Virus record (IMG/VR): IMGVR_UViG_3300037502_000754 | Location: 1 to 30,912 of that record | Reading direction: 5' to 3' (one strand) | DNA length: 30,912 bases | Source: a virus | Shown: positions 1 through 22,648 of the stretch, in pieces | How positions within the stretch are numbered: the stretch's first letter is position 1 | Layout: each line of letters starts with the position of its first letter | Position numbers and translations under genes: made by a program | The notes under the pieces: generated by a model | Seen by the model: only the letters and a program-made list of their open reading frames with translations | What the model was told of the DNA's origin: nothing | The model's database searches: none

Positions 1-1305
1 CTCCTGCGCCAGTTCATCGACGCGACCACGCTGTCGATCCACGGCAACATGAGCGGGTTCATCTCGGAGGCCCTGAACATCAGCAAGGGGCCGGTGAAGA
101 TTGAACTCGGCAGCCTGAAGACGGTCTCGGCCAGCACGGACGACATCCAGAAGGGCATCAAGACGCTGTCCTTCCCCGCCCCGCCCAACACCCTCATGCA
201 GGCCATTGCCCAGCTTGAGACCCGTGCCCAGCGCATCGGCGCGACCACGGATGCTGCTGCGGGCGACATCAACAAGGTCTTCCAGCCCACGACCATGCAG
301 ACGATGGTCGAGCAGTCGCTGGTGATGTTTACCTCGGTGCAGGAGTTCCTTCTGCACTCTTGGTCCAAGGAACTGAACAAGATCTATCGCCTCCACGGGA
401 TCTACTTCCGTGGGATCGAGAGCTTCATCTCGGTCAGCCCGGAGGGGCCGGAGGAGATGGTGGTCAGCGATCAGGACTTCATGGACGACATGCTCATCAT
501 GCCCGTGGCTGATCCCAGGATGATGAACCAGCAGAGCCGCCTCCAGAAGGCGCAGTTCCTGTTCGACTTCGCCACGAAGAACCCCCTTGTCGCCAACAAC
601 CCGGAAGTCCTGCTCGCGGTGTCGAGGAGGCTGCTAGAGGAGATGGAAATTGACGGGATTGACAGCATTCTTCCGCGATCTGTGGATCAACTACCGGAGC
701 CTGCGCCGGATCCGAAGGCCATGGCTGAGCAGGCGAAGGTCCAGGTCGAGCAGCAGAAGCTCCAGCTAGAGGCCCAGTCGGCGCAGCAGCAGTTGCAGAT
801 TGAAGCGCAGAAGATGCAAGTCGATCAGCAGATGAAGCAGGCGCAGATGGTCGGGGACCAGCAGCTTCAGCAGCTTCGCATCGAAAACGAGCGGATGTTG
901 CAGGAGATGCGAATCCAGAACGAGGCCGAGATCGCGCGCATGAAGCAGGAATACGAGAACGTGCGCGTCCAGCAGGAGCTTGCCGCCAAGCAGTCCATGG
1001 AGGCCCAGAAGGCCAAGATGGAGGCTGACACGAAGATCATGGTGGCGCGCATCGGTGCTGCCGGTGCGGATGTCCCCGGAATCGAAGCCGTGACCTCGTC
1101 CACGCAGCAGCTTGCGACGAGCATGGGCGAGGATGTGCGCCTGATGATCTCGCAGATGGAAGCCCAGAACGCTGCCCGCGACCAGCGCATGATGCAGATG
1201 ATCCAGTCCCTCATGCAGTCCATGGGCGCGCCGCGCAGGATCATCCGTGGTGCCGATGGCAGGGCAGAGGGCGTCGAGGTCGTACCCGGAGGGATGATGC
1301 AATGA
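1..1305 (+). CDS. Portal protein, C-terminal part (5' end outside window)
   Basis: The frame is open from the first base, so this is the C-terminal 434 residues of a longer protein; the first internal Met (position 49) is not a credible start. The region resembles the C-terminal half of podovirus portal (head-tail connector) proteins: a helical, Met/Gln-rich segment with residues such as FQPTTMQTMVEQ, then a long Gln/Glu/Lys-rich coiled coil (about residues 235-345 of the visible part) and a basic C-terminus. Portals form the dodecameric DNA entry ring at one capsid vertex. Its place upstream of scaffold and capsid genes agrees. No nuclease or peptidase motif is visible. The family call rests on overall pattern, and the missing N-terminus limits certainty. 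Confidence 0.72.
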   Translation, partial: LLRQFIDATTLSIHGNMSGFISEALNISKGPVKIELGSLKTVSASTDDIQKGIKTLSFPAPPNTLMQAIAQLETRAQRIGATTDAAAGDINKVFQPTTMQTMVEQSLVMFTSVQEFLLHSWSKELNKIYRLHGIYFRGIESFISVSPEGPEEMVVSDQDFMDDMLIMPVADPRMMNQQSRLQKAQFLFDFATKNPLVANNPEVLLAVSRRLLEEMEIDGIDSILPRSVDQLPEPAPDPKAMAEQAKVQVEQQKLQLEAQSAQQQLQIEAQKMQVDQQMKQAQMVGDQQLQQLRIENERMLQEMRIQNEAEIARMKQEYENVRVQQELAAKQSMEAQKAKMEADTKIMVARIGAAGADVPGIEAVTSSTQQLATSMGEDVRLMISQMEAQNAARDQRMMQMIQSLMQSMGAPRRIIRGADGRAEGVEVVPGGMMQ

Positions 1306-2128: not shown

Positions 2129-2308
2129 ATGAAGACGCTGCGCCATCGGTCGTGCCTGCATGAGTTCGAGGTCGAAGACGACTTCGCCGCTCGCATCGAG
2201 AACGATCTCAACGGTGGCCTCGGCCCGGCATCGCCGCCGGTGGTCTGCCCTGGGTGCAAGATCCCCTCGCGCTACAGCCAGTTCGTCGTGGTGACGCCGG
2301 ATGCCTGA
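2129..2308 (+). CDS. Small Cys/His protein (59 aa), possible zinc ribbon
   Basis: The ATG begins one base after the stop of the preceding gene, and the end overlaps the next gene by 8 bases. The peptide begins MKTLRHRSCLHEFEVEDDF and near the C-terminus has CPGCK. The Cys-x-His near residue 9 plus the later Cys-x2-Cys near residue 41 give four potential metal ligands in the arrangement of a short zinc ribbon. The late-operon position and tight packing support it being real. Function is unknown. Metal binding is inferred from ligand spacing. Confidence 0.55.
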   Translation: MKTLRHRSCLHEFEVEDDFAARIENDLNGGLGPASPPVVCPGCKIPSRYSQFVVVTPDA

Positions 2309-3560
2309 GACGCTGTACCTCAAGCTGGACGCTGTCGATGTGCGCCCGCTTGAGGACGCGCTGCTGGCGATCTTCAACAACGAGACCTCGGACGACCGGC
2401 GGTATTTCGAGCTTGTCTCGCTGCGCGTCTCCCCCAGCGCCCCCATCTCCAACAACACCGCTGGCGTGGGTCGCGCGGCGTCGATGTCCATCGCGCGCAT
2501 CACGGCGATTACCGGCGGCGACACGGTGACGCCAATCCTGATGGACACGGCAGACGCGAGCCTGCCCTCTCAGGTCGTCATCGCCAACAACCCCGACAGC
2601 GTCACGGCCACGGACACCTTCCGCCGCATCGCTGACGCGCCTGCGTACTCGCTCACCGTTGCCAACACGCAGTTCTCCAGCCGCACCTATGGTGGCAGCA
2701 TGGTGACGCACCAGAAAAGCCACTTCGCTGATATCTGGCGCGGCGGCGAGAGCGTCAATGTGGAGCCGATCATCCTGCGCGAAGGAGAGGGAATCGGTAT
2801 CTTCCAAAACAGCTACGGCTCGCAGCATTCGATGCAGACCGCAGCGGTTGTGACGAACACCGCGACCGGCGCAACGTACATCTGTCGGTCCACCGATCTT
2901 TCGACCGACCGTCGGTTGAACGAGGCTAACTTCGCGATCTTCAACGGATCTGGCAGCGGCGTCGTGCTAGCCGTGAAACTCTGGGTGCTGCCGATGGACG
3001 GCGAGGCTGTCCTCCAGCCTGCGCTTCGCATCTGCCGCGTTTCTGGCATCGGCCTCGGCGGCGACGCGATCACCCCGATCAAGCCCGATACCTCCAAGAG
3101 CATCCCCTCCGCGCTTGTCGTGAAGGGCGGCCCGTTGCAGCCGCGCATCTCGGGTGAGTGGCAAAGCGACTACTACGAGACGCATGGCCTTGTGTACCAA
3201 GCCACGGGCGCTCTGCTCGCCGCATGGAACAGGGCACAGGTAGACGCTGGCACCCTGAGCCGCTCCTTGATGACCAACATCTTCCCGGCCATCGGGGAGA
3301 CGAAGATCGGGATGCAGAGGTCGAGCCTCGGCAACGACCTGATCTTCAGCGCAGAGGCTGGCTACGGGATCATCATCAAGCCGGGCGATGGTCTTGCTCT
3401 GGTCGCTGGCACCGCACTCGCCACGGGCGGCACTCAGGCGACCGCATCAAACTCGACCTTCATCAACTTTGATGTGGAGGCCACCATCCTCCACTACCCG
3501 CCGCCCTCTGCACCGGCTGGCGGAAACACCTACTCCCGCTCCCGCGTCGTGAACAGGTGA
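2301..3560 (+). CDS. Structural protein with two tandem copies of a beta domain
   Basis: This 419-residue protein is internally duplicated. Residues 23-26 (AIFN), 65-79 (ARITAITGGDTVTPI) and 153-158 (NVEPII) in the first half correspond to 212-215 (AIFN), 243-260 (RICRVSGIGLGGDAITPI) and a later GYGIIIKPGDGLAL segment in the second half. The same pattern occurs once in the 1606-2127 gene. Composition is Ser/Thr/Gly-rich and beta-like, with no membrane segment, as in phage surface or decoration proteins. The start overlaps the preceding gene by 8 bases with only a weak GGTGA upstream, so expression probably depends on coupled translation. The virion role is inferred. Confidence 0.68.
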   Translation: MPETLYLKLDAVDVRPLEDALLAIFNNETSDDRRYFELVSLRVSPSAPISNNTAGVGRAASMSIARITAITGGDTVTPILMDTADASLPSQVVIANNPDSVTATDTFRRIADAPAYSLTVANTQFSSRTYGGSMVTHQKSHFADIWRGGESVNVEPIILREGEGIGIFQNSYGSQHSMQTAAVVTNTATGATYICRSTDLSTDRRLNEANFAIFNGSGSGVVLAVKLWVLPMDGEAVLQPALRICRVSGIGLGGDAITPIKPDTSKSIPSALVVKGGPLQPRISGEWQSDYYETHGLVYQATGALLAAWNRAQVDAGTLSRSLMTNIFPAIGETKIGMQRSSLGNDLIFSAEAGYGIIIKPGDGLALVAGTALATGGTQATASNSTFINFDVEATILHYPPPSAPAGGNTYSRSRVVNR

Positions 3561-7029: not shown

Positions 7030-7347
7030 ATGAGCAAGAAACTACGACCCCTCTTCGCGAGGGTTGTCGTCCGTGCAGAGACGCTACAGGCGTCCATCGG
7101 CAGCAAATACTCGGCCCTCAACAAGATGGGTTTCGAGATCCCCAAGACCGTCGAAGAGAAGATGATCCCCGACGAGGGCGTGGTCGTCTCCGTGGGCGAA
7201 GCCTGCGAGGTGATGAAGCCGGGCGACCGGGTTCTTTTTGGCAAGTGGGCGGCCAAGCCAATCGCCTTTGAGCCGGGCCTGTACGTCATGCAGGAGGAAG
7301 ACATCATCGGTGTCATCGAGGATGACGCCAAGGCTGTCGCCGCATGA
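7030..7347 (+). CDS. GroES-like co-chaperonin (phage Cpn10)
   Basis: This 105-residue protein shows the GroES pattern along its length: an N-terminal LRPLFARVVVRAE, a flexible central loop, EGVVVSVGEACEVMKPGDRV followed by LFGKW, and a C-terminal YVMQEEDIIGVIE. GroES forms a heptameric lid on the GroEL folding chamber. Phage versions, such as T4 gp31, adapt the host chaperonin to fold capsid protein. Here the mobile-loop region is longer than in bacterial GroES, with GFEIPKTVEEK where hosts usually have a GIVL-type stretch; this fits a changed GroEL contact. The gene is first in the head module and overlaps the scaffold gene by ATGA, supporting a role in capsid folding. Its ribosome binding site lies in a hairpin. 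Confidence 0.85.
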   Translation: MSKKLRPLFARVVVRAETLQASIGSKYSALNKMGFEIPKTVEEKMIPDEGVVVSVGEACEVMKPGDRVLFGKWAAKPIAFEPGLYVMQEEDIIGVIEDDAKAVAA

Positions 7348-8734: not shown

Positions 8735-9328
8735 ATGACCGACGCTCCCTATGGCCTCCAGGCCATTCGGAACAAGGCTGCTGGCAACACCCTCCGCACG
8801 AAGCTCTACCGAGTGACGGCGACGGGCAACACCCAGGGCCTGTTCATCAACGACCCCGTCCGATTCAACTCGGCGGGCCTCGGCGTGATCCGCCTCTCGT
8901 CCAACGCCGCCCCGAACACCCGCTGCCTCGGCGTGGTTTCGGAGCTGTTTGACGAGAACGGTCGCCCGCTCACGTTCAGCCAGCCGAACCGTGGCCCCTT
9001 CCTCCCCGCCTCGACGGCTGGGTGGGCGGCGGTCTACGACAGTCAGGCGATCACGTTCATCTGCCAGGCCGACGCCTCCGCTGCGGAGACGCTGGTCGGG
9101 CAGTACGTCTCGCTGACGGCTGCGACGAACGGCAACACGGCTGCGGGCACCTCGGTGATGCAGATCCGTGCGGGTTCGGCGGATACGTCCGTGAAGACCT
9201 TCCAGGTGCTGGGTCTGGCTCCGACTGAGGCTCGCGGCCTCGGCTCGGTCGCCAACAACTCGGCTTGGGGCAATGCGTTCATCGACCTTGAGGTCCGCAT
9301 CGCCCTCCACTCCTACACCTCGACCTGA
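8735..9328 (+). CDS. Probable capsid decoration or head stabilising protein
   Basis: A 197-residue beta-rich protein immediately before the major capsid gene, with an AAGGAG binding site. It opens MTDAPYGLQAIRNKAAGNTL, then has short strands and Gly turns (FINDPVRFNSAGLGVIRLSS) through to a C-terminal FIDLEVRIALHSYTST. Proteins starting 'PYGL-Q-I' placed next to the capsid gene are common in podophages and are thought to be head structural or decoration proteins. Decoration is inferred, since no motif proves it. Confidence 0.62.
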   Translation: MTDAPYGLQAIRNKAAGNTLRTKLYRVTATGNTQGLFINDPVRFNSAGLGVIRLSSNAAPNTRCLGVVSELFDENGRPLTFSQPNRGPFLPASTAGWAAVYDSQAITFICQADASAAETLVGQYVSLTAATNGNTAAGTSVMQIRAGSADTSVKTFQVLGLAPTEARGLGSVANNSAWGNAFIDLEVRIALHSYTST

Positions 9329-9343
9329 TAGGGAGGACCGCAC

Positions 9344-10234
9344 ATGACGACCGGAACTGGCAATCTCCCTGAACTCCTGTGGCCCGGCATCTCCACGATC
9401 TGGGCCGACACCTACCGCCGCTACCCGCCGCTGTGGAACCGCTTCATGATCCTGCGTCGCTCGAACAAGGCGTTCGAGAAGGAGCAGGGCGTGACGGGCT
9501 TCGGCCTCGTCGGGCAGAAGGACGATGGTGACAGCGTCCCGTACGTGGACATGCTCCAGGGCTATCAGCGCGAGTACGTCAACCTGACCTACGGGCTGGG
9601 CACGACGATCACCCGCGAACTGATGGAAGACGAGCAGTACAACGTCATCAACAACGTGCCGAAGATGCTGGCTGAGTCGATGCGTCAGACGGAAGAGACC
9701 GTCGCCGCTTCGGTCTTCAACCTCGGCTTCAGCACGATGCTGACGGCGGATGGCAGCGCCTTCTTCTCCTCGACGCACCCGAATGTCCGTGGTGGTACCC
9801 AGCGGAACATCCCCGCTGTCGCCTCGGACCTGACGCAGGCGTCGCTGGAGCAGGCGTACATCGACATCCACGACTGGCGCGACGACTCCGACCTGAAGAT
9901 CAACCTCATGCCCGAGAAGCTGCTGGTCGCCCCGACCAACCGCTTCGTGGCTGAGAAGATCCTCGGGACGAAGTTCGCGGTGGGTTCGGCTGACAACGAC
10001 ATCAATCCGATGGCGGGCCAGCTTGACCTGATCGTGAACCCGTTCCTCACGGACCCGGATGCGTGGTTCATCATCACGAACGCCAAGGCGGGCGCGACGT
10101 TCTACCGTCGCCGCAACGCCGAGATCACCCGTGACAACGAGTTCGACACGGAGATCCTCAAGACGAAGACGACGGCGCGCTTCTCGGTGGGTGCCACCGA
10201 TTGGCGCTACGCCTACGCGAGCGCCGGCAGTTAA
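9344..10234 (+). CDS. Major capsid protein, Mu gpT / HK97-fold type
   Basis: A 296-residue protein with a strong GGGAGG site and highly biased codon use, as expected for the most abundant virion protein. The arrangement fits Mu gpT-like major capsid proteins: an N-terminal helical part (LWPGISTIWADTYRRYPPLW), a central ETVAASVFNLGF, then FFSSTHPNVRGGTQ and LVAPTNRFVAEKILGTKF, and a C-terminal beta region with DAWFIITNAKAGATFYRRR. No prohead protease or long delta domain is seen; the separate scaffold gene upstream serves that role. A terminator follows, so high expression can be insulated from the tail genes. Confidence 0.87.
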   Translation: MTTGTGNLPELLWPGISTIWADTYRRYPPLWNRFMILRRSNKAFEKEQGVTGFGLVGQKDDGDSVPYVDMLQGYQREYVNLTYGLGTTITRELMEDEQYNVINNVPKMLAESMRQTEETVAASVFNLGFSTMLTADGSAFFSSTHPNVRGGTQRNIPAVASDLTQASLEQAYIDIHDWRDDSDLKINLMPEKLLVAPTNRFVAEKILGTKFAVGSADNDINPMAGQLDLIVNPFLTDPDAWFIITNAKAGATFYRRRNAEITRDNEFDTEILKTKTTARFSVGATDWRYAYASAGS

Positions 10235-10279
10235 GTAGCAAATAACTGTTGCTCGACTTCGTAGTACCCAGCAGGGGGA

Positions 10280-10306
10280 GGGGCATCCGAGAGGGTGCCC
10301 CTTTCT
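10280..10306 (+). terminator. Rho-independent terminator after the capsid gene
   Basis: GGGGCATCC (10280-10288) pairs with GGGTGCCCC (10293-10301), nine base pairs with one G-T wobble, closed by a GAGA tetraloop and followed by TTTCTC. This is a textbook intrinsic terminator 45 bases after the capsid stop codon. Confidence 0.85.
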
Positions 10307-10314
10307 CATAGGGG

Positions 10315-10344: not shown

Positions 10345-10371
10345 GGGGACGGATCAGCAAAGGATCTCTCC

Positions 10372-11808
10372 ATGACCCTCAAGACGCAGTTCTCCGGCCC
10401 CGTTGCCACCGGCATCGACAGGGGCAATCTCTCGCTGAGCAACAAGTCCTTCGGGCGGTTCACCGTCTGGACCCCGCTCACGACCCTCCCGGTCACGGCC
10501 CAGCCCGTTGCGGTGCTGCCGTTCGACGCGGTCCTGCATGAGATCAACATCTGGAAGACCGGGGCCTTCACGGGCGAGGCGGCCTTCAAGTTCGGCACCG
10601 CCACGGGCGGCTCGGACAACCTCGGCAGCATCTCCATCTCGGGCAACTCGGTCTACCGGGCGTTCGTCAACTCGGCCACGGCCCAGACCACCCTGCCGTT
10701 TGGCCACTCGGGCGTCTCTGCCGCCCCGACCCCGATCTACTTCTCGACCGGCACGATCTCCGGTACGACGAGCGCACTCGCCTCGGCTGCCTTCGTTGAG
10801 GTCATCTACACCCGCATCTCCCTGACGGATCGCCCGGATCTTGTTGCGGCGCACAAGGGGAATGACACGACCTATCAGGGGCCGGTTCGGTCTGGCGGCC
10901 AGGATGTCGGCATCCCGTCCCGCGCGGTCTGCGGCAACCTCGTCAGCATCCAGCAGGCGACTGCGGACTCCTCGCCGGTCAGCGGTCAGGTCATCGGGGT
11001 GATCCCCTACGGGGGCTACCTCAAGGAGATCAACTTCTACTGCCGCACGGCTCCCGCTGGCGAGGCGACGGTTCGCTTTGCCATCAACGGGGAGACGGAC
11101 AACCTCGGTAGCGTCACGGTCTCTGCCGCTGGCGTCTACTCGGTCGCGCTGACCTCTGCCGTCCGCGCCACGGTCCCGCTGGGCATCAACAGCGGCTCGG
11201 GCCAGCCGGTCAGGATGTCGGTCCTCGCGGCCTCGGGCGTGGTCACCGGGCTTCAGGGCATGGGCGAGCTTGTCATGGTCCGCAGGGGCCAGTCGGATGG
11301 CTACCCCGGCCTCGGCCAGAAGGAGACGACCTTCCAAGGCCCCATCGCCACGGGCGTCAACCTTGGCTCCTGGGGCAACGCCAAGCCCGAGATCGGGTGG
11401 GGCCGGTTCTCCAAGCTCACGACCACGATCCCCTCGACCAACGGTGTGGTTTCCGGCCTCCTCGTCGGCTACCTCCCCATCGGGGCGGCGCTGGTGGAGA
11501 TCAACTACATCGCTGGCACGGCTGCCGGGGGTGAGGCGACGGTGCGGGCGGGTACGTCCCCCACGGTCTTCACCTCGGACACGCTGGGTGCGGTGTCGGT
11601 CTCTGCGGCTGGCATCTACAGCGTGATCTCCTCGACGGCAGTCCGGGCCTTCGATGACTCGGGCGTCAACCGCGCCAAGAGCGGCGCCACCGCGCAGGCC
11701 ATCTACCTCAACGTCGCGGCTGCTTCTGGTAGCATTGCCACGCTGAGTGCAAACGCGGCGGTTGAGATCGTCTACACCCGCCTCGACCCCTCCATCTACG
11801 GAGTCTGA
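10372..11808 (+). CDS. Virion protein made of three tandem ~155-residue repeats
   Basis: This 478-residue protein is a three-fold internal repeat. Each unit opens with a GP-x-x-[TS]G stretch: FSGPVATG at 7-14, YQGPVRSG at 168-175, FQGPIATG at 321-328. Next comes a hydrophobic turn and EIN: LPFDAVLHEIN at 49-59, IPYGGYLKEIN at 211-221, LPIGAALVEIN at 368-378. Then DNLGSISISGNSVY at 82-95, DNLGSVTVSAAGVY at 243-256 and DTLGAVSVSAAGIY at 403-416. Units 1 and 3 close VEVIYTRIS and VEIVYTRLD. Beta-rich, Gly/Ser/Thr-heavy repeats suggest an appendage, fibre or decoration protein. It starts the post-capsid module behind its own promoter-like element. Function is not established. Confidence 0.72.
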   Translation: MTLKTQFSGPVATGIDRGNLSLSNKSFGRFTVWTPLTTLPVTAQPVAVLPFDAVLHEINIWKTGAFTGEAAFKFGTATGGSDNLGSISISGNSVYRAFVNSATAQTTLPFGHSGVSAAPTPIYFSTGTISGTTSALASAAFVEVIYTRISLTDRPDLVAAHKGNDTTYQGPVRSGGQDVGIPSRAVCGNLVSIQQATADSSPVSGQVIGVIPYGGYLKEINFYCRTAPAGEATVRFAINGETDNLGSVTVSAAGVYSVALTSAVRATVPLGINSGSGQPVRMSVLAASGVVTGLQGMGELVMVRRGQSDGYPGLGQKETTFQGPIATGVNLGSWGNAKPEIGWGRFSKLTTTIPSTNGVVSGLLVGYLPIGAALVEINYIAGTAAGGEATVRAGTSPTVFTSDTLGAVSVSAAGIYSVISSTAVRAFDDSGVNRAKSGATAQAIYLNVAAASGSIATLSANAAVEIVYTRLDPSIYGV

Positions 11809-11809
11809 C

Positions 11810-12154
11810 ATGGCCCGCCCCAAGAACTGGTCCTTCACGCTGGCTAACGCGGAGGCCACGACGATCTACTGGCCCACCGATACGTGGGTTTCCACGCAGG
11901 AATACGCCTTCAACTTCCGGGTCATCTCGGGGTCGGGTTCGTTCCTCGCGGGGTGTTCCGCCTCCTCGACCATTGACCGGGTGCTTCAGACCGGCGTCAC
12001 CTCGGCCCATTGGACGGAGCGTGTGGCGTTCAGCACGGGGACTGCCGCGACCTTCACGGGTCCGGTGTCCTGCTGGCGGCTCACGGTGCGCTCCAGCGGC
12101 GCGGCGACCTACGACCTCATGGCCCTCCAGTCCGGTCCTGAGCGGGTTGCCTGA
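11810..12154 (+). CDS. Small beta-rich structural protein (114 aa)
   Basis: ATG taken one base after the preceding stop; in-frame codons upstream lie inside the repeat-protein gene. The product begins MARPKNWSFTLANAEATTIY and continues as short strands rich in Thr, Ser, Trp and Phe. Its end shares one base with the next ATG (TGATG). Amino-acid style resembles the neighbouring virion proteins, but I recognise no family. A minor virion component is a reasonable guess. Confidence 0.6.
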   Translation: MARPKNWSFTLANAEATTIYWPTDTWVSTQEYAFNFRVISGSGSFLAGCSASSTIDRVLQTGVTSAHWTERVAFSTGTAATFTGPVSCWRLTVRSSGAATYDLMALQSGPERVA

Positions 12155-12531: not shown

Positions 12532-13221
12532 ATGGCACAGCAGGACAAGGCAACCCTCAAGCAGGCTTTCGAGACCGGAGACGCGCCAACGGGTAGCGAC
12601 TTCGAGAACCTCATCGACAGCCAGTTGAACCTTGCCGAGACCACGGCGCAGACGATCAACGGCCCGGTCAACTTCGCGGGTGGCGTGACGTTCGCGGCGG
12701 TCTCTGCGGCAACGGTCGGCGGCAGCACGGGCACCTTCGGGACCATCACCGCTTCGGCGGGTACGTTCACCCAGGTCTCGGCCAATGGGATCTTCGGGCT
12801 TGCCAAGGCCGAGTGCTACGCCACGGGCACGGGGTTGATCTCCACGACTGCGATCAACTCCTACGTCGTTACCAACGTCGGAACGTCTGCGGAGTTCACC
12901 AACCAGTTTACGCACAACGGCTCCGGTCGCCTTACCTACACCGGCTCGCAGACCAAGACCTTCATGTTCGACGTTGACTTCACGGTCAGCGGAGTGACGG
13001 CGGTCCAGAACGTCGCGGTGCGCCTCGGCAAGGATGGTTCCTCGCTTGCCAAGACCACGATGGAACTTCGGATGGCAGCCTCCTCCGCCCCCTATGCGGG
13101 CCATGTTGGCGGCATCGTGACGCTGACGGCCAACTCCTATGTCGAGGTCTACTCGACTGCGACGCTCAACGTGAGCAACATCCTCTTCGAGAAGTTGAAC
13201 CTACGCGCAAGGGAGGTCTGA
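12532..13221 (+). CDS. Fibre-like protein with C-terminal jelly-roll-type region
   Basis: A 229-residue protein. The N-terminus carries FETGDAPTGSDFENLIDSQL, a motif repeated in variant form at the start of the 21752-22648 tail fibre (FQPTSADFSNLIDS). A stretch of thin Ala/Thr/Gly repeats follows (GGSTGTFGTITASAGTFTQV), as in beta-helical or triple-helical fibre shafts, and then a C-terminal ~120 residues alternating strands, like a small TNF-like knob. This layout suggests a short tail or head fibre. Receptor specificity cannot be read. Confidence 0.6.
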   Translation: MAQQDKATLKQAFETGDAPTGSDFENLIDSQLNLAETTAQTINGPVNFAGGVTFAAVSAATVGGSTGTFGTITASAGTFTQVSANGIFGLAKAECYATGTGLISTTAINSYVVTNVGTSAEFTNQFTHNGSGRLTYTGSQTKTFMFDVDFTVSGVTAVQNVAVRLGKDGSSLAKTTMELRMAASSAPYAGHVGGIVTLTANSYVEVYSTATLNVSNILFEKLNLRAREV

Positions 13222-13222
13222 C

Positions 13223-13936
13223 ATGGCCTCGCCCTACCTCACGATTCTGGAGATCGTGAACGAGGTCTGCGACCGGATGAACATCCGCCGCGTGACCACG
13301 ACGAACCAGAACGCATTCACGAAGAACTGCATCAACCTCCTCAACGACATCATGGAGGAGATGACGGACTTCGGGACTTGGAACGAGTTGCAGGCATCGG
13401 CCTCGGTGACGATGGTCTGCGGGCAGTCGATCTACACCATCGACACCACGACGCTCGCTACGGCCAAGCAGTTCATCCACTCCATCCAGGAGGTCGCGGT
13501 GTCGGGTCGCGTGCCGCCGCTTGAGCCGATCTCGGACAAGAACGAGTTCCGCATGCTCAACCGCGTGAACTCCATCGGCCAGCCGTCGCGCTACATCATC
13601 GAAGGCGTGGACACGCTCGGCAATCCCCGCCTCGGCATCTTCCCGCGCCCCGGTGCGAACTACGCTGGCAACGAGGCTTTCGTGAAGTTCCAAGTGCTGC
13701 CGCCGAAGTATGTGGCGGGGTCGGATGACGCGGTGGTCGTGCCTTTCCCCGGTCGCGTGGTCATCCTCGGCCTCGTCGCTGCGGCGATTCTTGACGAGAG
13801 CGCGGGTGCAGAGACGCGCCAGTATCAGGCAGCGCAGTTGAAGTACCTTGCCGCGCGCAACAATGCCCTTGGACGCCAGACCGCCAAGACGGGCGAGTAT
13901 GTGCGTGTCCAGCCGGGCGTGACGACGAGGTCGTGA
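13223..13936 (+). CDS. Head-tail adaptor protein (tail tubular A / gp4-like)
   Basis: A 237-residue protein directly upstream of the nozzle-like gene, the usual order in podoviruses. The N-terminal half is helical (ILEIVNEVCDRMNI, FTKNCINLLNDIMEEMTDFG), followed by beta segments with TMVCGQSIYTIDTTTL and PRLGIFPRP. The C-terminal helix (ETRQYQAAQLKYLAARNNAL) is typical of adaptor proteins that line the portal exit, such as T7 gp11 or P22 gp4. The adaptor call combines this helix-beta-helix order with gene position. Confidence 0.68.
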   Translation: MASPYLTILEIVNEVCDRMNIRRVTTTNQNAFTKNCINLLNDIMEEMTDFGTWNELQASASVTMVCGQSIYTIDTTTLATAKQFIHSIQEVAVSGRVPPLEPISDKNEFRMLNRVNSIGQPSRYIIEGVDTLGNPRLGIFPRPGANYAGNEAFVKFQVLPPKYVAGSDDAVVVPFPGRVVILGLVAAAILDESAGAETRQYQAAQLKYLAARNNALGRQTAKTGEYVRVQPGVTTRS

Positions 13937-21751: not shown

Positions 21752-22648
21752 ATGACTGCCCTGTCGAAGTCCGCGCTCAAGGCCCTCTGGAAGGCGTACT
21801 TCCAGCCGACAAGTGCGGACTTCTCCAACCTCATCGACTCCTGGGCTGACTACAACGTCAGCCTACAGGCCCTCGGCCAGCAAGTGTCTGCGGGTGGGGT
21901 TGGGGTCCCGAAGTTCGTCTCGACCACGACGGTCGCATTCGTGCCATCCGGGACGACGGGAGAGAGCCTGCTCGGGACGAATACGCAGTCGTCTGCGCTT
22001 TCGGTGCTTGGGCTTTCTTCTCTTTCCGGCGTCACCGTTCCAATCCCGGTTTCGTTCGGTGGAACTGGAGTCGCGTCGCTTAGCGCCAACCATGTGGTCC
22101 TCGGCAACGGGACTTCTGCCGTGCAGCTTGTTGCGCCGGGGACAAGCGGCAACGTACTTACGAGCAACGGAACGACTTGGCAGTCCACGACCCCAGCCTC
22201 AACGGCCCAGAACTTCGTCCAGCAAGTCTACGCTGAGTATTCAGCGCATTCTTCAACTACGACCGTCATGCCGCTTGACGACACGATCCCTCAAAACACG
22301 GAGGGTGCTGAGTTCATGTCGGTTTCGATCACGCCGACATCGTTGAGCAACTATCTGCTGATCAACGTTACTGGGATGCTGTTGGGAAGTGGCAGCCAGA
22401 ACATCGTTGGCGCAATCTTCAGGGACAGCATAGCCGATGCCATAGCGGCGGGATTCTTCTATATAGCGTCCGCTGGTGATGGTCTGATGTTCACTCTTTC
22501 CGTCCGCATTGCTGTCCCGTCAACCAGCACCATGACGTTCAAGTTCAGGGCTGGGCCAGGAAGCGGGACGCTGTATTTCAACGGATACACCGGGCGCTTG
22601 CTTGGCGCGATCCCCAAAAGCACGATCACGGTGACTGAGGTCAAGTAA
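21752..22648 (+). CDS. Tail fibre or receptor-binding protein (298 aa)
   Basis: The N-terminus has FQPTSADFSNLIDSW, echoing the 12532-13221 fibre and likely used for attachment. The middle has the classic tail-fibre repeat GGTGVASLSANHVVLGNGTS with VLTSNGTTWQST. From about residue 155 the C-terminal ~140 residues alternate beta strands like a jelly-roll tip. Together these mark a trimeric fibre whose tip likely binds the host. Base composition is more AT-rich toward the tip, usual in fast-evolving tips. No chaperone gene follows it; the next gene is a membrane protein. Confidence 0.75.
   Translation: MTALSKSALKALWKAYFQPTSADFSNLIDSWADYNVSLQALGQQVSAGGVGVPKFVSTTTVAFVPSGTTGESLLGTNTQSSALSVLGLSSLSGVTVPIPVSFGGTGVASLSANHVVLGNGTSAVQLVAPGTSGNVLTSNGTTWQSTTPASTAQNFVQQVYAEYSAHSSTTTVMPLDDTIPQNTEGAEFMSVSITPTSLSNYLLINVTGMLLGSGSQNIVGAIFRDSIADAIAAGFFYIASAGDGLMFTLSVRIAVPSTSTMTFKFRAGPGSGTLYFNGYTGRLLGAIPKSTITVTEVK

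Follow-up and report, generated by a model that had tools for sequence, protein, structure and literature searches.

A three-unit protein encoded beside a phage major capsid gene as a probable natural single-chain trimer of capsid cement

Viral decoration proteins most typically occur as trimers, according to the available part of PMC7602432, and the cement proteins of the phages GP4, Pam1 and KHP30 are trimers that occupy threefold or quasi-threefold sites of the capsid, as far as they are described in the accessible sections of PMC9698820. In the same sections of that paper (PMC9698820), the terminal extensions of the KHP30 and Pam1 cements are placed at the base of the adjacent protomer, in contact with the arms or the E-loops of the major capsid protein (MCP); the N-terminal loop of the Pam1 cement runs under its neighbour towards the MCP E-loops, and the cement of Ralstonia phage GP4 (gp1, 8h89_J, 157 aa) forms 180 trimers at the quasi-threefold axes. 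The KHP40 entry, 7dou, is titled 'Trimeric cement protein'. Gp39 of JBD30 is reported, in the accessible text of PMC11445458, to form homotrimers at the threefold and pseudo-threefold axes of mature heads and to be absent from procapsids. Kinship alone does not fix the capsid site, since the cement of BPP-1 forms dimers on twofold axes (PMC3863775, available part), and Mu, with an MCP of the same broad type as the one studied here, is described without a cement in the available part of PMC11915804. Each chain of the Pam1, GP4, KHP30 and KHP40 cements and of JBD30 gp39 carries a single domain, and no natural fused trimer of a phage cement was found in a literature check that covered titles and abstract openings.

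The window, that is, the whole stretch of DNA analysed here, is an entire virus record of 30,912 bases (IMG/VR record IMGVR_UViG_3300037502_000754), in which the gene under study starts 137 bases past the end of the MCP gene, in the position after the capsid gene where the original prediction had placed it (Table 1). That prediction, made from the letters of the DNA, had read the open frame as a virion protein of three tandem repeats, and the frame, its coordinates and the repeats are all real: the units, of 160, 157 and 161 aa, match each other by BLASTP with E-values of 9e-15 (units 1 and 2), 2e-17 (units 1 and 3) and 2e-18 (units 2 and 3), and their Smith-Waterman scores lie 17.5 to 21 SD over those of shuffled sequences (1000 per pair). 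The motifs that it had listed are also present in the three units when these are compared by eye, namely GPVATG, GPVRSG and GPIATG, followed by LPFDAVLHEIN, IPYGGYLKEIN and LPIGAALVEIN, and by DNLGSISISGNSVY, DNLGSVTVSAAGVY and DTLGAVSVSAAGIY, in units 1, 2 and 3 respectively, with VEVIYTR in the first unit and VEIVYTR in the third. A 501-aa antisense open frame (10354-11859, minus strand) lies over the gene and is probably a by-product of base composition.

Table 1. Coordinates of the three-unit gene, its parts and its neighbours in the window, and of the one-unit genes that replace it in three related contigs (contig coordinates)
Feature	Position	Strand	Remarks
Major capsid protein (MCP), HK97-fold families, Mu gpT/JBD type; presumed binding surface	9344..10234	+	
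Three-unit protein gene, predicted cement	10372..11808	+	478 aa
Unit 1 (arm + predicted jelly-roll-like body: six strands, short helix, two strands)	10372..10851	+	
Arm motif of unit 1, TQFSGPVATG	10384..10413	+	T.[FYH].GP in 28/28 aligned proteins
Unit 2 (element order as unit 1; C-terminal MVRR where the others have YTR)	10852..11322	+	
Arm motif of unit 2, TTYQGPVRSG	10867..10896	+	28/28
Unit 3 (element order as unit 1)	11323..11805	+	
Arm motif of unit 3, TTFQGPIATG	11326..11355	+	26/28; missing in L049 and L051, the two most divergent
114-aa gene, no function assigned	11810..12154	+	50% identical gene 3' of the L041 one-unit replacement
Tail/adaptor-like protein	13223..13936	+	phrog_6013, E 1.4e-5; some genes downstream of the cement gene
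One-unit replacement of the three-unit gene, L040	9061-9522		
One-unit replacement of the three-unit gene, L041	9061-9522		
One-unit replacement of the three-unit gene, L042	2755-3216		

The MCP assignment is derived from PHROG head proteins (E 6e-20 to 1e-23) and from Pfam, where Phage_capsid_4 (4e-19) and also Mu gpT are matched. JBD26, which we take to be a close relative of JBD30, is among the matches of the MCP search, and the closest named MCP, 44% identical, comes from a record named 'Podoviridae sp.', so that the window virus is likely a short-tailed phage. A 3.9-kb contig that was assigned to the MAG of an uncultured actinobacterium carries a 97% copy, which is not proof of host. A portal is matched at the left end of the window (phrog_1216, E 2.6e-5), and a GroES-like gene (7030-7347; Pfam Cpn10, E 9e-9) lies upstream of the MCP gene, as it does in the named MCP relatives as well.

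Among the described systems, the arrangement resembles that of cyanophage Pam1, in which the gene order is portal-scaffold-MCP-cement-adaptor: the cement gene (Pam1_06; 7eel_H) immediately follows the MCP gene, and the adaptor gene then follows directly. The Pam1 cement itself, unlike the window protein, has 140 aa, one domain per chain and no T-x-[FYH]-x-G-P motif, and kinship between the 365-aa Pam1 MCP and the MCP family of the window is not detectable, so that cement and MCP would be combined differently in the two lineages. The cements of the Helicobacter phages KHP30 and KHP40 (7dn2, 7dou) also differ from the window protein in having a single domain in 124-126 aa, and that of GP4 in having one domain per chain on a T = 9 head, with termini that carry no obvious extension according to the accessible sections of PMC9698820. 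JBD30 gp39 is numbered right after the MCP, gp38, like the window gene, but it has a beta-tadpole fold with one domain per chain and is found on part of the virions (PMC11445458, accessible text).

The three-unit gene is kept in most of the near relatives. A search of IMG/VR with the window MCP delimited a near clade of 46 contigs, whose MCPs have 84-100% identity over the portion present; 39 of them have the three-unit gene (cut by the contig end in L026 and L050), three have a one-unit replacement and four stop at most 500 bases past the MCP. After loci with the same MCP frame had been pooled, which left 114 distinct frames here and in the wider sample (the window's own, L012, and partial frames included), the gene was present in 25 of the 26 readable near-clade loci, L040 being the one that represents the three replaced contigs. 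The 28 distinct three-unit proteins that were aligned, the window's included, are 476-482 aa long, and the other 27 are 41-96% identical to that of the window. Against the five close relatives compared, dN/dS is 0.19-0.25, with unit 3 lowest in each comparison, and the gene is thus under purifying selection. A tblastn search of 50,697 phage records with the window protein gave no match at E 0.01.

In a maximum-likelihood tree of the single units, from which identical rows, the cut L026 and L135 (231 aa) were omitted, and in which the single unit of L050 is a fragment of a three-unit gene, the units are grouped by position and not by virus. This holds for all third units (support 98/91), for all first units together with the L050 fragment (98/94) and for the second units minus that of L049 (100/99); the L049 second unit is a long branch of unsure placement, and all second units as a single group reach only 34/44. 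Because the units cluster by position, the triplication most likely predates the clade, with copies that appear to have diverged without homogenisation.

Outside the near clade, the same place is often occupied by a short gene. The wider MCP clade, with about 31-46% MCP identity, was represented by the best 80 of at least 596 confirmed matches and by six named phages, and iterated profile searches seeded by the three window units alone gathered from it proteins of one-unit size, mostly 133-182 aa. Such a member is found in 32 of the 75 readable distinct-MCP loci of this sample, in one case (L108) through the arm only; the other 43 loci, 26 with the arm motif and a body outside the profile and 17 with neither, count against the reading preferred below. 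The three-unit architecture was found in none of the profile-positive proteins in the post-MCP slot of these 75 loci. The first profile matches 33 of 2912 distinct ORFs and the last one 64, every ORF matched by the six profiles tested (it4 left out) starts at most 1.5 kb after an MCP, and none of the 2912 reversed ORFs is matched by any of the six. By hhalign, the units and the one-unit family are aligned with a probability of 95.9, a score of 57.3 and an E-value of 5.8e-9, which is flattered because the one-unit members were gathered with the unit profile, a bias from which the PDB and fold results are free; none of 100 column shuffles scores above 16.2, and without the first 32 (arm) columns the score is 35.8.

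The one-unit family links the units to solved structures. A profile was built from 21 proteins, chosen from the 32 of one-unit size in the last round by omitting those of named phages, truncated sequences and some that were near-copies or of odd length, and against the PDB sequences (E <= 10) it gave six matches in all, namely the cements of Pam1 (1.6e-8), GP4 (4.7e-4) and KHP30 (0.001), a 143-aa 'structural protein' (26de_W, 0.0011), a protein of the R4C baseplate complex (0.3) and the BPP-1 cement (0.88). The predicted fold points in the same direction: the model of the one-unit relative L084 (pLDDT 79.4) matches Pam1 with a Z score of 12.1 (2.2 A, 114 residues aligned), GP4 with 11.6 and KHP30 with 11.0, followed by KHP40 and the R4C baseplate (8gtc), both with 9.3, while unrelated folds reach up to 7.8. 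The BPP-1 cement is matched by the one-unit model with a Z score of 7.0, and its Pfam family, Bbp16, by L084 weakly (E 0.006, below the curated cut-off). The unit profile itself has no match among the PDB sequences at E <= 10, and none to the Pam1 cement, and the sequence kinship of the units to solved cements holds only by way of the one-unit family.

For the three-unit protein, confidence is confined to a single AlphaFold model of five (pLDDT 81.6, pTM 0.87), which counts against the reading preferred below; the other four have pLDDT values of 54-64. In the best model, every unit has a short arm with strands ahead of the body, and the order of the body elements is that of the L084 model; the structure prediction that had been proposed as a check for a repeated fold thus gave one strand and helix order in all three units. 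The predicted models contain a cement-type body, that is, a two-sheet jelly-roll or Ig-like arrangement with one short helix. The top three chain matches of the best model are KHP30 (Z 6.8), GP4 (6.5) and KHP40 (6.0), values that are modest, within the range of common arrangements, and count against the reading; the GP4 match extends over 19..307 and covers two units, which might reflect swapped strands in the model.

By Foldseek, the best whole-chain match is the nepovirus coat of tobacco ringspot virus (1a6c; E 4e-7, TM just 0.14). This coat has three beta-sandwich units in one chain instead of three chains, and is the shell itself, unlike the proposed cement. Engineered single-chain trimers of C1q (5hzf, E 1e-5) and adiponectin (4dou, E 8e-4) are also matched, with TM 0.25-0.27 and an rmsd of about 12 A; these and 5hkj have three units in one chain by entry title and are man-made, and the matches are suggestive only. 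In a viral structure library, the matches listed are largely RNA-virus polyproteins and coats with TM <0.2, together with a 155-aa phage protein (TM by target 0.71) that fits the one-unit family.

The best-supported reading is that the three-unit family consists of phage capsid cement (decoration) proteins, predicted to be present in virions, because its units are kin to one-unit post-MCP proteins that match, in profile and predicted fold, the cements of Pam1, GP4, KHP30 and KHP40. What had first been described as a virion protein of unrecognised family is sharpened accordingly. The gene adjoins the MCP gene in the head module, as do those of Pam1/GP4/KHP30-type cements; these cements have one domain per chain and trimerise by association of three chains, and the protein, with its three units in one chain, is classed as a cement variant and not as an ordinary member.

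Within this identity, we consider that the gene product is probably a natural single-chain cement trimer, with its three arms docked around local threefold axes. An ancestral one-domain cement gene just past the MCP gene would have been triplicated in frame before the clade diversified, and the copies would then have diverged by position, as the unit tree supports. Each unit would consist of an N-terminal T-x-[FYH]-x-G-P arm and a jelly-roll-like body of the Pam1/GP4/KHP30 type, according to the structure predictions and to the profile of the one-unit relatives. The chain would lie on the outer surface of the mature head, at the local threefold junctions of three capsomers, with one chain per site. 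Its three bodies would pack about a pseudo-threefold axis and its arms would dock on three MCP subunits next to it, and a single molecule would thus clamp three capsomers. The replacement of a homotrimer by three domains in one chain, as the original prediction had it, is therefore retained as the best-supported reading, whereas the closed pseudo-threefold packing is one that we infer from one confident model of five, the number three, the three arms and the trimeric relatives. The number of units argues for a threefold site, without proof; at a true icosahedral threefold axis, three different units per chain would force mixed binding orientations, which counts against it.

The three beta-sandwiches in tandem would also fit an elongated head decoration with a single anchor and the domains strung outward, like T4 Hoc and N4 gp17, which are monomers with three Ig-like domains according to the available part of PMC7602432, and the closed packing of the units is model-based; the window protein has three anchor-like arms, and this class of decoration a single terminal capsid anchor. 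Nevertheless, such a string appears unlikely here: an arm motif in each unit, at the frequencies given in Table 1, would be needless for it; a single unit is the entire protein in the relatives, the best-matching solved proteins with such a body are cements, and the pTM of the confident model is not expected of flexibly linked domains. Lower still is the probability of a tail, baseplate or host-binding protein that is merely encoded after the MCP. The related fold in the baseplate-tail complex of the siphophage vB_DshS-R4C and the wide variation of the other occupants of the slot speak for it, but the top sequence and fold matches are capsid cements, the Pam1 cement gene immediately follows that of the Pam1 MCP, and the arm motif tracks the MCP lineage as the bodies change. 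A polyprotein, whose linkers would be cleaved to release three one-unit cements for assembly into heterotrimers, is the least credible: 17 and 14 residues do separate the last strand from the arm of the next unit, and each unit is as long as a whole one-unit relative, but the two linkers have, by eye, no evident repeated cleavage-like sequence besides the following arm.

The proposed single-chain cement trimer is further illuminated by a natural swap in which arm and body are separated. In the best model the arm, T-x-[FYH]-x-G-P, begins 21-23 residues ahead of the first body strand in each unit, and an arm of the same pattern stands at the head of many one-unit relatives and of other bodies in the post-MCP slot. 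The contigs L040, L041 and L042 lie within the clade by MCP, that of L041 being 91.6% identical to the MCP of L039 and 81% to that of L049, both of them three-unit viruses. In place of the three-unit gene they carry the gene of a one-unit protein, 148 aa from the second ATG, that begins MANTTFEGPL, with the arm kept and a different body. BLASTP between the L041 protein and the window protein aligns little beyond the arm, with no significant match past it, and the body has PDB hits at chance level only and no Pfam family. On both sides of the replacement the genes have homologues in the window, namely the MCP gene before it and two genes after it, the latter with 50% and 59% identity. The 114-aa gene of the window delimits the swapped slot on its 3' side, since its 50% identical counterpart follows the L041 replacement.

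The L041-type body (from residue 23-30 on) recurs in 49 loci, made up of the same three contigs, three part-only matches and 43 loci at 59-72% identity. In all ten other loci of this body that were read, the N-terminus is different, and this MCP family lies in the flanks (at most 4 kb) of two of the 48 loci examined, which are those of the L040 and L041 contigs. Since the swap in L040-L042 keeps the arm, while the body recurs elsewhere with other N-termini and mostly without this MCP, the arm would travel with the capsid lineage, the body would be exchangeable and a one-unit chain could replace a three-unit chain, as judged from the sequences. We infer that the arm is a docking element for the MCP lineage of the window, and it is possibly a general capsid-docking peptide of the MCP clade. 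In 26 slot loci among L017 and L082-L141, the arm is found on bodies outside the cement profile, and some of these proteins have merely 74-94 aa.

A more tentative extension, to which we would give rather less than even chances, is that the units are specialised for three non-equivalent capsomer neighbours, the fixed orientation of the chain breaking the local threefold symmetry, and that the arm is an interchangeable plug matched to the MCP lineage, on which bodies are swapped singly or in threes. If this were true, position-specialised units would be a built-in answer to quasi-equivalence. The single-chain trimer proposed above, with protomers that are naturally fused and diverged, would offer a way to ask whether quasi-threefold protomers are truly equivalent. 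Viruses of the L041 type would be a ready control, since a one-unit protein is combined there with an MCP that shares 91.6% identity with the MCP of a three-unit virus. Should the arm indeed be the docking element, it could serve as a portable tag to display one or three different bodies on such heads.

Several other candidates and names were discarded. The gp085c protein of Caulobacter phage RW (501 aa, encoded directly after the MCP) is not a three-unit protein and matches homing endonucleases instead; a match to phrog_26105 (E 8e-7, residues 207-272, function unknown) was set aside, and the name 'Rz-like spanin' (phrog_20969), attached to some one-unit relatives, is unfit for this setting. 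Weak Pfam matches to Reovirus_L2_6th and SusF_SusE were judged to be due to chance, and so were the PDB transporter matches of the full-length profile (E 0.015).

Some further features of the window were recorded. A hairpin with 15 predicted pairs lies between the MCP and cement genes (10274-10307); it was not called by a terminator scan, and it folds modestly better than shuffled sequences (z -1.9, 8 of 200 as good). Immediately 5' of the MCP gene is a 197-aa gene (8735-9328), and the six named relatives inspected have a gene of similar size there; the product of the window gene, without a PHROG or Pfam match at E 1 or a match among the PDB sequences, may be another capsid protein. The products of 12532-13221 and 21752-22648 are otherwise unlike but have a common N-terminal stretch of 30 residues (43%, E 3e-4), which is perhaps an attachment end. 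A second repeat family occurs between the portal and GroES genes, where a 173-aa protein (1606-2127) is followed by one of 419 aa with two halves (2301-3560); the E-values between its units, the 173-aa protein and both halves, are 2e-10, 0.002 and 1e-5, and the pair appears by sequence to be one unit beside a two-unit chain.
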